Source: Anaerolineae bacterium
GTDB taxonomy: Bacteria > Chloroflexota > Anaerolineae > Aggregatilineales > Phototrophicaceae
Length of the DNA stretch: 64,000 nucleotides
Reading direction: 5' to 3'
Assembly: GCA_022841825.1 (NCBI GenBank)
Contig: JALHQT010000001.1
Span: forward strand, 682,001-746,000
Part shown: in pieces, positions 2,271 to 55,336 of the stretch
How positions within the stretch are numbered: position 1 is the first letter of the stretch
How the letters are laid out: every line of letters begins with the position of its first letter
The notes under the pieces: generated by a model
Databases searched by the model: none
What the model was told of the DNA's origin: nothing
The model's input: only the letters and a program-made list of their open reading frames with translations
Made by a program: the position numbers and the translations under genes

Positions 2271-5200
2271 GGCGCGATGGCGTCTTGCTGCTGGTCGCCG
2301 TGCTCGCCCTTTCTGGCGCGCTGGTGGCTGCATTCGGTACCCTGACAGAACGTGATGTGGCGCTGCACGGCTATCGCAACCCTGTCGTCGACACAGATAT
2401 TCCCTTCGCCCTCCCCCGCTTGGGGGTCAATGTTGACCTGACCCAGTACAGCGGGCAAGCGCTGCGCGAGCAGCTTCGGCTGATGCAGAATGCCGGTTTC
2501 GTCTGGATTCGCCAGCCCCTGGATTGGTCGGAATTTGCCGGCGACAGCAGCGGGGGGCGCTACCAGCCGATCTTCGCAGCGCTCATGGAGCAACCCACAC
2601 TCCGTCTCATCGCCGCATTGAGTGACTCGACAGGTACGCCACCCGATACAGAGCTGTTTACCCAGGCAGCCGCCAATCTCGCGCGAAATTACGGCGACAG
2701 CATCGCTATTTACGAGATATGGAACGAGCCAAACCTGGGTGTCATGTGGGGCGGCTCACCCAGCCCTGCTGCATATGCCGCGCTTCTGAACGCATCCTAC
2801 CGCGCCATTCATGCGCAAGACAGTAGCGCGCTGGTGAACAGCGCCGCGCTGGCACCTACGACAGAAACCAGACCCCAGAATATGAGCGACCTGGTCTACC
2901 TGGAAGCCCTCTATTCTCTTGGACTGCGCGATTTCAGCGATGGCATCTCCGCCAAGCCCTACGGGTTTTCCGACTCCCCCACTGCTGCCGCCGAGCAACA
3001 GACGCTGAACTTCAGGCGCGTAACCCTGCTGCGCGATATTATGCTGCGCCACGATGACGCCCACACGCCGCTTTGGGCGAGCGAATGGGGATGGAACAGC
3101 CTGCCCGACGACTGGCGGGGACAAGCATCGATATGGGGAGGCGTGACGCCAGAGGAACAAGCGGGCTACACGCTGGAAACCCTGAGCCTCGTCGAGACCC
3201 GCTATCCCTGGCTCGGCGGCATGATTCTATGCTGCTGGCAGCCGCTTGAACTCCCGCCAGAAGATGGGCGCTGGGGCTTCGCCATCCGCGACATCCAAGG
3301 CAGCGCCAGCCCACTCTGGAGTGCATTCGTCGCCGCCCGCTCGCAGTTGAACGCAGCTCCACAAGGTCTCCACCGACCGGACAATCCGTTTGCGCGCTAT
3401 TCGGGCGTTTGGTCATTTGGCGAATTGGGCGCGGACATCGGATGGGTCGGCGATAGCAGTCTCGAATTCACGTTTCAGGGTGATGCGCTCAGTCTGCTGG
3501 TGCGCGAAGGAAACTACACTGCGCATCTGTACGCGACGATTGACGGTCAGCCAGCCAATGCACTGCCCAGAGACAACAACGGCAACGCCTACCTGCTCCT
3601 CACCAGCGACACCCTCACGCCACAGGTTCAATTGGTTCCTATCGCCCAACATCTGGGCGAGGGACCTCACACCCTGCGAATCGTCGCGGAGCGTGGGTGG
3701 GACCAGTGGGCGCTGGTCGGCTTTGCTGTCGGCGGGTCGGATCTTGCCGCGCCTTACAACCGCCAGATAGTGCTCGCCATCATCAGCGCCATCATTGCTA
3801 CAGGTAGCGTCATGATCTTCGCTCGGCGGATCAAATGGGGCAATGCGACGCAGCCCGTAAGGTCCGCGTTCAAGCATATCTCTAATCTTGGAGTGCTGAC
3901 GCTTTCCGGGCTGGCAGCGGTCGTCATGATGCTTGGGATGCTCCTCACCTGGCGAAACGGACTGCCGGACATCCTCCGTCGGGAGCCTGTCCAGCTTGGC
4001 GTTGCACTGCTTACAGGCGGGTTGGTTTATCTGAACCCCGCATTCATTGTCTCGCTGGCGGCATCCGCTGTCCTGTTCATCATCTTCTTCCACAAACCCC
4101 TGATCGGCTTGACGCTCACCCTCTTCTTCGCACCATTCTATCTGTTCCCGGTCGAGCTGTACCGATTCGCCTTCCCGATGAGCGAACTCCTGATCCTGCT
4201 CACATTCGGTGCATGGTTGATTCGAGTCGGTGTGCATTGGGCACAGAATCGCAGCACTCCCACACACTCCGATCAGCCTCTTAAGTGGCACTCGGTCGAT
4301 TTGCTGCTCGTCGCATACATCGGGTTTGGCGTGCTGTCGCTGGCGTGGACAGAATATCGTTCGCCAGCCATAACGGAACTGAGGACACTCTTTGCCGAGC
4401 CTCTGATGTTCTACATTGTGCTGCGCACAAGCCGCCCCACCCCACGCGACATCCTGCGTCTGGTGGACACACTCGTCATCAGCGCTGCGCTCGTCGCCTC
4501 GATTGGACTATTCCTCTACCTCCGCGGGGATGCCATCATCACCGCAGAAGATGGAGTACGACGCCTTGCCAGCGTCTACGGCTCGCCCAATAATGTCGCG
4601 CTCTCGTTAGGGCGCGCGCTGCCCTTCGCGCTCGCATTCCTGCTCATTCGGTTGGACAGGCGTCGTCAGGTGGTCATGGCGATCCTGCTGCTGATCATGA
4701 CCACTGCGCTCATCCTCACGCTCAGTGCCGGGGCATTTTTCTTCGGCATTCCCGCTGCGCTCGTCGTCGTGGTGGTGCTCACCTTTCGGTCAAGAAGTAC
4801 CCTGCCTCTGCTCTCGCTGGGGTTACTCGGCGGCATTGCACTTCCGATACTCGCGCAATTCCCACGCTTTGCCCGTCTGCTCGAACCCACTGAGGGGACG
4901 AATTTCTTCCGAATTCGTGTCTGGCAGAGCGCGATTGCCATGATTCGCGACCATCCCGTCACTGGCATTGGGCAGGACCAGTTTCTACCCTACTTCCAGG
5001 GGCGCTACATACTGCCGGATGCCTGGCAAGAACCCCAGCTATCTCACCCGCACAATTTCCTGTTGGACATCTGGCTTCGGTTGGGGATGGGGGGCGTAAT
5101 CTGGCTTGGGGCGATCTTGTTCGTCCTCATCCGCAGCCTGCTTCGCACATATCATCGCTTTCACGATCAGCCAGGCGAAGGAAAGTGGGTGACCGCCATT

Positions 5201-5335
5201 TGCGTGGGCAGCCTGGGCGCTCTCGCGAATGTCGTCGCACACGGGTTGATCGACAACAGTCTGTTTGTCAACGACCTCATTTATGCGTTTGTACTTATCT
5301 GCGGGATAGCGTCCAGCATCGACCAGCAACCGTGA
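2267..5335 (+). CDS. Glycoside-hydrolase-like domain fused to an O-antigen ligase/polymerase (Wzy_C) membrane domain
   Basis: A 1022-residue protein with two parts. After one N-terminal membrane segment, residues about 45-370 form a TIM-barrel glycosidase-like domain with the clan-A signature EIWNEPN (Glu154, probable acid/base) and ASEWGW (Glu273, probable nucleophile). A beta-rich segment follows (about 375-490). From about residue 500 the chain is a multi-pass membrane domain with the Wzy_C/O-antigen-ligase region, including GIGQDQF and SHPHNFLLDIWLRLG near the C-terminus. This suggests a cell-surface protein combining glycan recognition or cleavage outside with glycan polymerisation or ligation at the membrane. 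It overlaps the lipoprotein gene by four bases. Each half is recognisable; the joint function is inferred. Confidence 0.8.
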   Translation: MRRDGVLLLVAVLALSGALVAAFGTLTERDVALHGYRNPVVDTDIPFALPRLGVNVDLTQYSGQALREQLRLMQNAGFVWIRQPLDWSEFAGDSSGGRYQPIFAALMEQPTLRLIAALSDSTGTPPDTELFTQAAANLARNYGDSIAIYEIWNEPNLGVMWGGSPSPAAYAALLNASYRAIHAQDSSALVNSAALAPTTETRPQNMSDLVYLEALYSLGLRDFSDGISAKPYGFSDSPTAAAEQQTLNFRRVTLLRDIMLRHDDAHTPLWASEWGWNSLPDDWRGQASIWGGVTPEEQAGYTLETLSLVETRYPWLGGMILCCWQPLELPPEDGRWGFAIRDIQGSASPLWSAFVAARSQLNAAPQGLHRPDNPFARYSGVWSFGELGADIGWVGDSSLEFTFQGDALSLLVREGNYTAHLYATIDGQPANALPRDNNGNAYLLLTSDTLTPQVQLVPIAQHLGEGPHTLRIVAERGWDQWALVGFAVGGSDLAAPYNRQIVLAIISAIIATGSVMIFARRIKWGNATQPVRSAFKHISNLGVLTLSGLAAVVMMLGMLLTWRNGLPDILRREPVQLGVALLTGGLVYLNPAFIVSLAASAVLFIIFFHKPLIGLTLTLFFAPFYLFPVELYRFAFPMSELLILLTFGAWLIRVGVHWAQNRSTPTHSDQPLKWHSVDLLLVAYIGFGVLSLAWTEYRSPAITELRTLFAEPLMFYIVLRTSRPTPRDILRLVDTLVISAALVASIGLFLYLRGDAIITAEDGVRRLASVYGSPNNVALSLGRALPFALAFLLIRLDRRRQVVMAILLLIMTTALILTLSAGAFFFGIPAALVVVVVLTFRSRSTLPLLSLGLLGGIALPILAQFPRFARLLEPTEGTNFFRIRVWQSAIAMIRDHPVTGIGQDQFLPYFQGRYILPDAWQEPQLSHPHNFLLDIWLRLGMGGVIWLGAILFVLIRSLLRTYHRFHDQPGEGKWVTAICVGSLGALANVVAHGLIDNSLFVNDLIYAFVLICGIASSIDQQP

Positions 5336-5393
5336 GAGTTTGATAAATCTTCGCAGTGAGCGCGCCTAATTTGAATATGCGAACACCCGCTCT

Positions 5394-5424
5394 ATTGACG
5401 TCAATCCTAAATTGATCGTTAAAT
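5394..5424 (+). promoter_or_regulatory. Candidate promoter of the macrodomain gene with a palindrome over the -35
   Basis: TTGACG (5395-5400), 18-base spacer, TTAAAT (5419-5424), then AGGGG (5425-5429) five bases before the ATG at 5435. The -35 is embedded in the perfect 12-bp palindrome ATTGACGTCAAT (5394-5405), which could be an operator. Not verified experimentally. Confidence 0.45.
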
Positions 5425-5434
5425 AGGGGTTACG

Positions 5435-6007
5435 ATGGGCGCAGTGGGTGACTTGGCGATGAAAGTGAAGATCAACAAAGTCACAATCCAGACGCAGGCA
5501 GTAGATTTATGGTCGCTCCGTGTTGCTGCCGCGGTCAATGCCACAGACACCGACCTCACCCTGCAACCGAAACTAGTCGCGCAGGCAGGGGCGGACGTTG
5601 TCCGTGAAATCTCCCTGGTTGGATACTGCCCTGTTGGCTCCGCCATTATGACGACTGCTGGCAGCCTGCCGTTCAACAAGATCATTCATGTCGTAGGTCC
5701 TCGCTGGGGCGAAGGCGCTGAACGCGGCAAGCTTGCCAGCGCCACCTATGAGTGCCTGCATTTGGCGGAGACAAATGGACTCAAGTCGATTGCGCTCCCT
5801 GCCATTAGCACCGGCACAATGGGCTATCCGCTCGAAAACTGCGCAACCACGATGCTCACAACCATCGTGGACTACACATTCGAAGACCTCAAGACCCTTC
5901 GGACAATCGTCCTGGCGCTGGAAGATGAGCATCACCTGGAAGTCTTCGACCGCGAGTTGAGCCGCCAGATTCAATCACTGGGCGAAGAAGGCGCAGCCGC
6001 AGTGTAA
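5435..6007 (+). CDS. Macrodomain (ADP-ribose-binding) protein
   Basis: 190 residues covering one macrodomain with little else. Recognisable elements are AAVNATDTDL (the adenine-proximal Asn/Asp loop), VGYCPVGSAIMTTAGSLP, IIHVVGPRWG, and the phosphate-binding loop LPAISTGTMGYP. Family members bind ADP-ribose and many hydrolyse ADP-ribosyl groups or O-acetyl-ADP-ribose. The usual Gly-rich loop after the NAANS motif is changed here (QAGADVVREISLVG), so catalytic activity is uncertain. The gene is monocistronic by spacing, with its own promoter and a good Shine-Dalgarno. No ADP-ribosyltransferase or DarT partner is visible next to it. Confidence 0.8.
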   Translation: MGAVGDLAMKVKINKVTIQTQAVDLWSLRVAAAVNATDTDLTLQPKLVAQAGADVVREISLVGYCPVGSAIMTTAGSLPFNKIIHVVGPRWGEGAERGKLASATYECLHLAETNGLKSIALPAISTGTMGYPLENCATTMLTTIVDYTFEDLKTLRTIVLALEDEHHLEVFDRELSRQIQSLGEEGAAAV

Positions 6008-53773: not shown

Positions 53774-54250
53774 TTATTCTGCGGTTTCGCCTTCTGACGC
53801 AGCGACCTTATAGCCCTTGTCGCGCAGTTGGCGCTTCACATCTGCAATCAGCTTGGCATTGATACCAGGGATCTCGGTGAGCGCACCTTCTCCGTCGCCC
53901 TCAACGCGGCTCAGGAAATCACCAGCGGTCTTGATACCGTTGTCCGCCAGGGTCTTGATATAGCGCGAGTTCAATTCAAGCTGCTCAATTGGGAATGTGA
54001 GCGGTGTCTTTGAGGCGGCGCGCTGTTCAGCTTCCGAGCGCTTGCTATCGCGCACCTGAAGCTTACGGATGAAGCGATCAATCTGACCTTCTGTATCGAC
54101 AATGCGCTGCTCGCCGGTGTAGAAGGGATGGCACGCAGAACAAATATCTGTGCGAATTTCAGCGACTGTTGCGCCGGTCGTCCAGGAATTACCACAGGCA
54201 CAAACCACATTTGCCTGCGGGAACCATTCAGGATGGAGCTTTTCTTTCAT
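53774..54250 (-). CDS. rpmE: Ribosomal protein L31 with C-terminal helix-hairpin-helix extension
   Basis: 158 residues, about twice the usual 66-70. L31 itself (1-70) has the zinc-binding CACG (Cys17, Cys19) and CSAC (Cys37, Cys40) plus HPFYTGEQRIVDTEGQIDRFIRK. Residues about 85-148 are an added domain, IEQLELNSRYIKTLADNGIKTAGDFLSRVEG...LTEIPGINAKLIADVKRQLRDKGY, which closely resembles the helix-hairpin-helix fold of the RNA polymerase alpha C-terminal domain. The tail could bind DNA, rRNA or RNA polymerase. It follows rpmA and rplU in the same direction. Confidence 0.93.
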   Translation of the reverse strand: MKEKLHPEWFPQANVVCACGNSWTTGATVAEIRTDICSACHPFYTGEQRIVDTEGQIDRFIRKLQVRDSKRSEAEQRAASKTPLTFPIEQLELNSRYIKTLADNGIKTAGDFLSRVEGDGEGALTEIPGINAKLIADVKRQLRDKGYKVAASEGETAE

Positions 54251-54301: not shown

Positions 54302-55006
54302 CTAGTTCTCTTCACGACCGCCGACGAGCTTATCCTGATATGCCTTCAAGGCGTCAAAGTCGCCTTCCGCAGCAAATTTAGCCTGCTTTGCCCAGGTCGG
54401 GATGCTCGGCGCAAAGCGCAAGCCTGCCGCCTCAACCGCCGCATGGATTTGCTCCTCGGAAGCTTCGCTCAGTTTGGCGAAAGTATCGATGCCCGCCGCA
54501 ACGAGAGCCGCCGCCATCTTGGGACCAATGCCTTCGACAATCGTCAGGTCATCGCCTTTGTCAGATTTCTTGCTGCGCTTAGGGGCTTCAGCCTCAGCCT
54601 TCGCCACCGGCAGATCGACCATCGTCGCTTCACTGCTTGGCGCTGCTTCTTCCGCTTTTGCCTTCGGCGCACTGGCAACAATCTTTGTCAGCTCCGTAAC
54701 GCTCATAGGCTCAAGTTTCTTCGCGCCCCCGTTGCCGTTCTGAACAGGGGTCAGTTCGGGATAAACGCTGATGAAGCGCTTGCCGCGATACGGCTTTTCG
54801 AACACGACATACCCCACTGCTGTGGCGAAGAGGGTGTGATCTTTGCCCATCATCACGTTCTCGCCTGCAAAGAACTTCGTCCCGCGCTGGCGAATAAGAA
54901 TATTGCCAGGAATAACCAACTGCCCGCCATATCGCTTGACGCCGAGGCGCTGCGAATTACTGTCACGACCGTTGCGGCTTGAGCCGCCGCCCTTTTTGTG
55001 TGCCAT
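54302..55006 (-). CDS. rpmA: Ribosomal protein L27 with C-terminal helix-hairpin-helix extension
   Basis: 234 residues, versus about 85-95 for ordinary L27. N-terminal [37 protein letters not shown] and GRDH-like MGKDHTLFA are standard L27. From about residue 95 an Ala/Glu/Lys-rich linker leads to a helix-hairpin-helix ([28 protein letters not shown], about 152-183) and a C-terminal [29 protein letters not shown] motif like that of DUF4332/HhH domains. The addition mirrors that on L31 next door. Confidence 0.93.
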
Positions 55007-55024: not shown

Positions 55025-55336
55025 TTACGCCTGAATCGAGTCGATACGGAGGCGGGTATAATATTGACGATGACCGCGCTTGCGGCGGAAATTGGTGCGT
55101 TGACGATATTTGAAGACGATGATCTTGTCCGCGCGGTACTGGCTGACCACGGTGCAGGTCACTTTCGCGCCATCGACAACCGGTGAGCCAATGACGGTCT
55201 TATCGCCATCACCAATCAAAAGGACATCCGTGATGTCAAGCGATTCGCCTTCGCCAAGCGCAAGGCGCTCGACATCCACCAAACCACCCTGTACAACACG
55301 GTATTGCTTGTTTCCTGAACGGATAACTGCGTACAT
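55025..55336 (-). CDS. rplU: Ribosomal protein L21
   Basis: 103 residues of normal length: MYAVIRSGNKQYRVVQGG at the start, FKYRQRTNFRRKRGHRQYYTRLRI at the end. First of rplU-rpmA-rpmE on the minus strand. Confidence 0.97.
   Translation of the reverse strand: MYAVIRSGNKQYRVVQGGLVDVERLALGEGESLDITDVLLIGDGDKTVIGSPVVDGAKVTCTVVSQYRADKIIVFKYRQRTNFRRKRGHRQYYTRLRIDSIQA

Follow-up and report, generated by a model that had tools for sequence, protein, structure and literature searches.

The ribosomal protein bL31 encoded in the window (the whole stretch of DNA that was analysed, 64,000 nucleotides) was found to continue, behind a complete zinc-type L31 domain, into a C-terminal tail. Sequence comparison showed residues ~86–147 of this protein to be a (HhH)2 domain descended from the C-terminal domain of the RNA polymerase (RNAP) alpha subunit (aCTD). 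Our leading reading, which is tentative (probability roughly 0.42), is that bL31 with its aCTD-descended tail has gained a nucleic-acid docking module, most likely an rRNA clasp on the 30S head; the steps of this reading beyond homology and residue counts are ones that we infer.

Reading frame and gene neighbourhood

The fused protein is encoded on the minus strand at positions 53774–54250, in an unbroken frame of 158 residues that begins with an ATG at 54250, ends with a stop codon at 53774–53776 and is preceded by a GAGG ribosome-binding site five bases 5′ of the ATG. An earlier note on this DNA had placed the gene, its frame and its ends exactly so. The gene is the third in the minus-strand order rplU-rpmA-rpmE and is followed by genes that, from their translations, we take to encode thymidine kinase, a NifS/IscS-type enzyme and MnmA. 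The features of the fused protein and its two ribosomal neighbours, with the evidence for each in brackets, are as follows.

54059–54250, minus strand: bL31 core, residues 1–64, zinc form, four cysteines (Pfam Ribosomal_L31, TIGR00105, translation)
53996–54058, minus strand: linker, residues 65–85 (AlphaFold2 model; identity to 24 relatives 14–57 %)
53810–53995, minus strand: aCTD-type (HhH)2 domain, residues 86–147 (Pfam/NCBIfam, relatives' profile against the PDB, fold of the tail alone)
53810–53866, minus strand: second hairpin and last helix, residues 129–147, a basic face in relatives (residue counts, charges)
53777–53809, minus strand: C-terminal end, residues 148–158, of low model confidence (last block pLDDT 50)
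54302–55006, minus strand: bL27 (rpmA); it has an HhH tail of another type, matched by Pfam HHH_5 at residues 153–188
55025–55336, minus strand: bL21 (rplU), 103 aa, without a tail (translation)

Among the matches listed, the window genome has a single bL31 match, with no tail-less second copy found, and one bL21 match, which covers query residues 1–102 of 194. The tail is not the C-terminal part of an RNAP alpha subunit: it sits on bL31, and elsewhere the genome encodes a normal RpoA that has its own CTD. Other HhH proteins of the genome (17 matches) appeared by eye to be mostly ordinary repair proteins.

The different HhH tail of the neighbouring bL27 was absent from all 17 distinct bL27 genes in relatives' loci. 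By eye, the same module is also seen on membrane-type proteins of the window genome (L241, L242 and L243) and on the bL21 of another genome, G096 (L340 911–1723, minus strand).

Domain composition of the fused protein

Residues 1–64 exceeded the curated cut-offs of both L31 models, with 86.6 bits against Pfam Ribosomal_L31 (cut-off 27) and 79.8 bits against TIGR00105 (cut-off 38.35), and all four zinc-form cysteines (CxC and CxxC) are present in this core. Beyond the end of the L31 domain the chain runs on for 94 residues, the last ~70 of which make up the second domain, with the folded part at residues ~86–147. Residues 79–143 matched Pfam RNA_pol_A_CTD at E 2.1e-4; the protein by itself scored 21.4 bits and the genome search gave 22.8 bits, both slightly below the curated cut-off of 23.8, and the general HhH model HHH_5 matched the tail about equally (E 2.9e-4, 21.7 bits). 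NCBIfam RpoA models matched the tail region with E-values of up to 7.9e-7, at scores far under their whole-protein cut-offs. Across the whole genome, RNA_pol_A_CTD at E≤0.001 identified two places, RpoA and the bL31 tail.

The L31 tails of all eight genomes sampled from family f2 exceed the Pfam cut-off on their own (30.9–42.3 bits), whereas that of the window does not, so the case for aCTD descent is carried by the family rather than by the window's tail by itself. A profile of the tails of 12 relatives, built without the window's own tail, found 49 PDB sequences at E≤0.01, all 49 of them RNAP alpha. The candidate assignment of the tail to another kind of HhH domain, such as the NusA acidic repeat, was dropped because this profile finds only RNAP alpha at that threshold. 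Among the 60 PDB matches listed (of 79), L31 chains align no further than query residue 75, and the tail is matched by RNAP alpha chains only. The main claim of the earlier note, an aCTD-like tail on a zinc-type L31, is thus borne out by the Pfam and NCBIfam matches and by the PDB matches of the relatives' profile.

Predicted structure

In the full-length AlphaFold2 model, residues 53–81 form one helix running out of the core, and the relative placing of the two domains is unsure (pTM 0.42). When this model of all 158 residues was submitted to Foldseek, the 50 matches listed of 280 were L31 and ribosome entries, so a separate model of the tail was made and used as the query. The tail model, built with 42 aligned sequences, reached a mean pLDDT of 77.5, and its top Foldseek match was the Thermus aCTD (E 4e-3, probability 1.00). 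The 50 matches listed of 91 comprised 48 RNAP/aCTD entries and 2 BAF entries, and none of the 91 was at E≤0.001. In VIA-align 2 the tail aligned with E. coli alpha at Z-scores of up to 9.1 (62 residues, 1.4 Å).

In the comparison with aCTD that the earlier note had proposed, the tail alone is thus predicted to have the aCTD fold. The HhH domains of RAD51/Dmc1 score close behind (Z 7.1–7.8 against the tail), so the fold by itself would leave the kinship undecided; it is the sequence profile that decides it.

Distribution of the fusion

The earlier note had also pointed to the L31 genes of related genomes, and there, among 179 relatives from named genomes, the best 80 all have the same bL31 fusion. 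These 80 belong to the Chloroflexota, under the names Anaerolineaceae, Anaerolineales, Anaerolineae, their genera, Chloroflexi/Chloroflexota and one Chloroflexus sp., and the genera include Bellilinea, Longilinea, Leptolinea, Anaerolinea and Ornatilinea. Named carriers are Bellilinea caldifistulae GOMI-1, Anaerolinea thermolimosa IMO-1, Longilinea arvoryzae KOME-1, Leptolinea tardivitalis YMTK-2 and Ornatilinea apprima P3M-1.

Within the window's class, the fusion occurs in at least 47 of 199 sampled genomes. A genome was counted as a carrier if its L31 match reached query residue 136 or beyond, which gave at least 44 genomes in 12 families, and three carriers (G005, G018 and G080) were added from another list; with families f5 and f12 joining the 12, tailed bL31 is present in at least 14 families of the class. 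For the window's order, the tail was found in all 10 sampled genomes, the window's included. Among the matches listed, families f4, f6, f7, f9 and f11 of the class have bL31 without the tail, and those bL31 matches from outside the class that are free of stop codons end at residue 92 or before.

In family f8, bL31 has lost the zinc cysteines and kept the aCTD-type tail (L025 1501–1944, L172 1708–2229 and L278 1665–2168, all on the plus strand).

Phylogeny and divergence of the tail

The tree of the aCTD-type domains comprised 68 rows and 67 columns, with RpoC, response-regulator, helix-turn-helix and unassigned rows left out by choice. A branch at 100/98 separates the 23 RpoA rows from all the other rows of this tree, and a set of 19 L31 tails, at 96/92, includes that of the window. 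Of the 21 L31 tails included, 19 group together and two long-branched rows (L161 and L163) fall outside; a single clade of all 21 was not rejected (p-AU 0.305, on 67 columns only). The candidate origin of the tail as a recent copy of the window genome's own RpoA CTD was dropped, as the tree sets all the RpoA rows apart.

The tails of seven relatives from the window's family are 31–42 % identical to that of the window, and their L31 cores 64–83 %. Among 24 relatives the corresponding ranges were 23–44 % for the tail and 50–83 % for the core. Low tail identity in the window's family may be read as a sign of weak constraint, and such fast divergence argues against a strictly specific partner.

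Residues and charge of the DNA-binding face

For the E. coli domain, we take the DNA-reading residues to be R265, N268, K271, N294, G296, K298, S299 and E302, and in this presumed numbering 130 L31 tails were compared with 53 RpoA domains of the Chloroflexota. Sequence motifs were used to assign each protein to its type, except for 9 RpoA and 3 NusA that were assigned manually, and domains of <20 bits or <48 residues were dropped from the residue counts. In the 53 RpoA domains, R265, N268 and G296 are each present in 53, K298 and S299 in 52, and K271 and N294 in 51. The picture in the 130 L31 tails is different, with N268 present in 12 (E or D stands there in 84), K271 in 13 and N294 replaced by G in 129; R265 (122), G296 (123), K298 (111) and S299 (101) are kept. 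L270 is found in 128 of these tails, K304 in 127, K or R at position 305 in 123 and R308 in 123.

Mean charge over positions 294–312 was +4.23 in the L31 tails (n=130, range −3 to +6, a mutually related set with kinship uncorrected) vs +0.64 in RpoA (53); for the other carriers it was +0.93 in NusA (15), +1.0 in bL21 (2) and +0.14 in bS16 (7). The first part of the domain in the L31 tails, positions 256–293, is acidic (mean −3.45). The window's own hairpin is atypical, having N at position 296, L at 299 and a charge of +3 in 294–312.

The promoter-reading DNA face is therefore partly lost in the L31 tails, in which N268, K271 and N294 are mostly replaced, and the window's tail lacks G296 and S299 as well. 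As the charge at 294–312 shows, the bL31 modules typically have a last hairpin and helix that are basic.

Proposed role of the tail

On the ribosome, bL31 reaches from the 50S central protuberance to the 30S head. In published structures its C-terminal part lies on uS13, uS14, uS19 and 16S helix 42 of the 30S head (PMC7530986). Studies cited in PMC7530986 report weaker subunit association when bL31, or just its last seven residues, is missing. From this position of the C-terminal part on the 30S head, the tail would be expected to emerge on the 30S head too. The kept hairpin and the basic last helix would then dock the tail onto the rRNA backbone, and, once docked, the tail could serve as an additional clasp, stabilising subunit association or the L31 bridge. 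The tail would not be a promoter-DNA reader; it is more likely that the altered domain grips RNA on the ribosome. The partly lost promoter-reading face, the basic last helix and the place of the bL31 C-terminus together favour an rRNA-docking clasp.

Several observations stand against such a clasp. The window's own tail is atypical in the residues and charge given above, and the modules on bS16, bL21 and NusA are not markedly basic. The difference in identity between tail and core within the window's family points to weak constraint for an rRNA-docking surface. The long acidic linkers of several bS16 modules, described below, suit a free tether better than a clasp.

Modules on other proteins and transcription–translation coupling

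Sequence comparison showed that aCTD-type modules on ribosomal and transcription proteins of the class form a set that includes the window's tail and that the tree separates from the polymerase's own aCTDs; all carrier counts are lower bounds. The module was found on bS16 at a minimum of 11 of the 30 loci examined (at least 11 genomes). The bS16 linkers vary, several being long and acidic, as at L170 1978–2598, L171 1615–2265 and L264 864–1478 (all minus strand), and others short. On bL21 it was found at a minimum of 4 of the 30 loci examined (at least 4 genomes); at two loci the tailed bL21 lies slightly upstream of a tail-less bL31 (L250 382–1113 and L251 318–989, both plus strand), and the bL21 linker at L250 is short and basic. 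A C-terminal module on NusA accounted for 15 domains in 13 genomes of the class, with two copies in G373 and G319. One genome, G367, has an RpoC (beta′) with a domain of this type inserted near open-frame residue 740 (L258 2–4141, minus strand). A response-regulator-like open frame of 1120 residues in G403 has three in a row (L252 313–3672, plus strand). One more copy follows a helix-turn-helix protein (G303), and another two proteins (G310 and G367) have three between them.

Two tandem aCTD-type domains are present on the NusA proteins at L167 2119–4167 and L168 1858–3858 (both minus strand). At L167 a tailed bL31 (4999–5490, plus strand) lies ~0.8 kb from NusA, on the opposite strand.

Outside the class, aCTD-like domains occur on other proteins too (G023, G015, G062, G026 and G043), so the domain's spread is not confined to the Anaerolineae. 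One example, in G023, which belongs to a different class of the phylum, is an open frame of 148 residues with an aCTD-like domain at its end that scores 49.7 bits (L272 911–1354, plus strand).

The presence of the same kind of module on NusA, bS16, bL21 and one RpoC in sister genomes keeps a transcription link alive. On this explanation, the ribosome-borne module would meet RNAP, NusA or a shared aCTD-binding factor, keeping the leading ribosome near the polymerase. We rank such coupling next after the rRNA clasp, and consider it unlikely. None of the 11 bS16-module genomes is among the at least 47 with the L31 tail, and a tail-less bL31 is listed in 8 of the 11, which would suit coupling. This exclusion is an apparent one, however, drawn from few families, and G403, G421 and G438 have no bL31 among the matches listed. 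The three ribosomal carriers, bL31, bS16 and bL21, lie far apart on the ribosome, which tells against coupling, as does the fast divergence of the tail in the window's family. The window genome's own NusA (L271, G000:C8) keeps only a decayed remnant, a degenerate stretch of 2.2 bits where relatives carry the module. Moreover, other classes of the phylum have such domains on proteins of unrelated kinds, so the presence of one does not by itself imply coupling, and we know of no partner of the tail that would serve for it.

A link between ribosome and RNA polymerase through the tail, or its contact with transcription factors, which the earlier note had raised, is accordingly unproven. The wider proposal is that in the Anaerolineae the aCTD became a moving module on the ribosome (bL31, or bS16 and bL21) and on the elongation machinery (NusA, once RpoC), physically linking translation and transcription; we hold it to be unlikely. 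If true, it would mean a lineage-specific translation–transcription link that other bacteria lack.

Other explanations of the tail

Lower in probability again is that the tail has kept a general nucleic-acid binding by which ribosomes would be held near the nucleoid or on mRNA. The predominant retention of R265, G296, K298 and S299 and the basic last helix of the L31 tails are in keeping with such a tether. So is the replacement of N294 by G in 129 of 130 tails, which gives the GxG of the general HhH hairpin motif. It is harder to reconcile with the replacement of N268 and K271 in most tails, with the acidic first part of the domain and with the window's own lack of G296 and S299.

Lower still, and improbable, is that a harmless fused aCTD-type fold persists as a nearly neutral passenger, or serves only protein stability or rpmE control. 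The contrast in identity between tail (23–44 %) and core (50–83 %) across 24 relatives and the existence of other families of the class that list bL31 without the tail would fit this. However, at least 14 families have kept an alignable domain; of 130 tails, 128 have L270 and 127 have K304, and the tail is found in every sampled genome of the window's order.

A frameshift or chimeric assembly, by which the earlier note had thought the fusion might be undone, is refuted, to the point of a negligible chance, by the same fusion in all 80 of the best named loci (of 179), isolates included, and by the one continuous frame.

Comparison with known systems

Ribosomal proteins with added domains are known, but one would not expect to find an RNAP alpha domain on bL31 or, as in sister genomes, on bS16, bL21 and NusA. 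A search of the open-access literature, where most subscription papers are missing, found no description of an aCTD on bL31, bS16 or bL21. For annotation by domain match, the finding advises caution, as a match to RNA_pol_A_CTD is not always RpoA.

Relative to the bL31 zinc form (TIGR00105, PF01197), residues 1–64 are alike, with all four cysteines. The alignment to solved L31 chains ends by query residue 75 (among the 60 PDB matches listed of 79), whereas the window's bL31 continues into the tail.

NCBIfam PRK12278 (bL21) and PRK12311 (uS2) resemble the fusion as ribosomal proteins with an HhH tail, the inclusion of the tail in these models being deduced from the matched positions. Their tails are of another HhH type, whereas the L31 tail matches RpoA models instead. 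Both models match the tail of the window's bL27 next door (E 1.5e-8 for PRK12278 and 1.6e-3 for PRK12311, both below cut-offs), so the HhH tail is already known as an addition to ribosomal proteins.

NCBIfam PRK14906, which we take to be an RNAP beta′ with an alpha-type domain, is alike in that a further component of the transcription machinery bears an aCTD-like domain, and it matches the L31 tail weakly (E 0.056); it differs in being a polymerase subunit rather than a ribosomal protein.

The closest likeness is to the RNAP alpha CTD itself (PF03118), which the tail resembles in sequence profile, predicted fold and several hairpin residues. It differs from that domain in being carried by bL31, in the replacement of N268, K271 and N294 in most tails and in its basic last hairpin and helix, and the tree separates the L31 tails from the RpoA domains.
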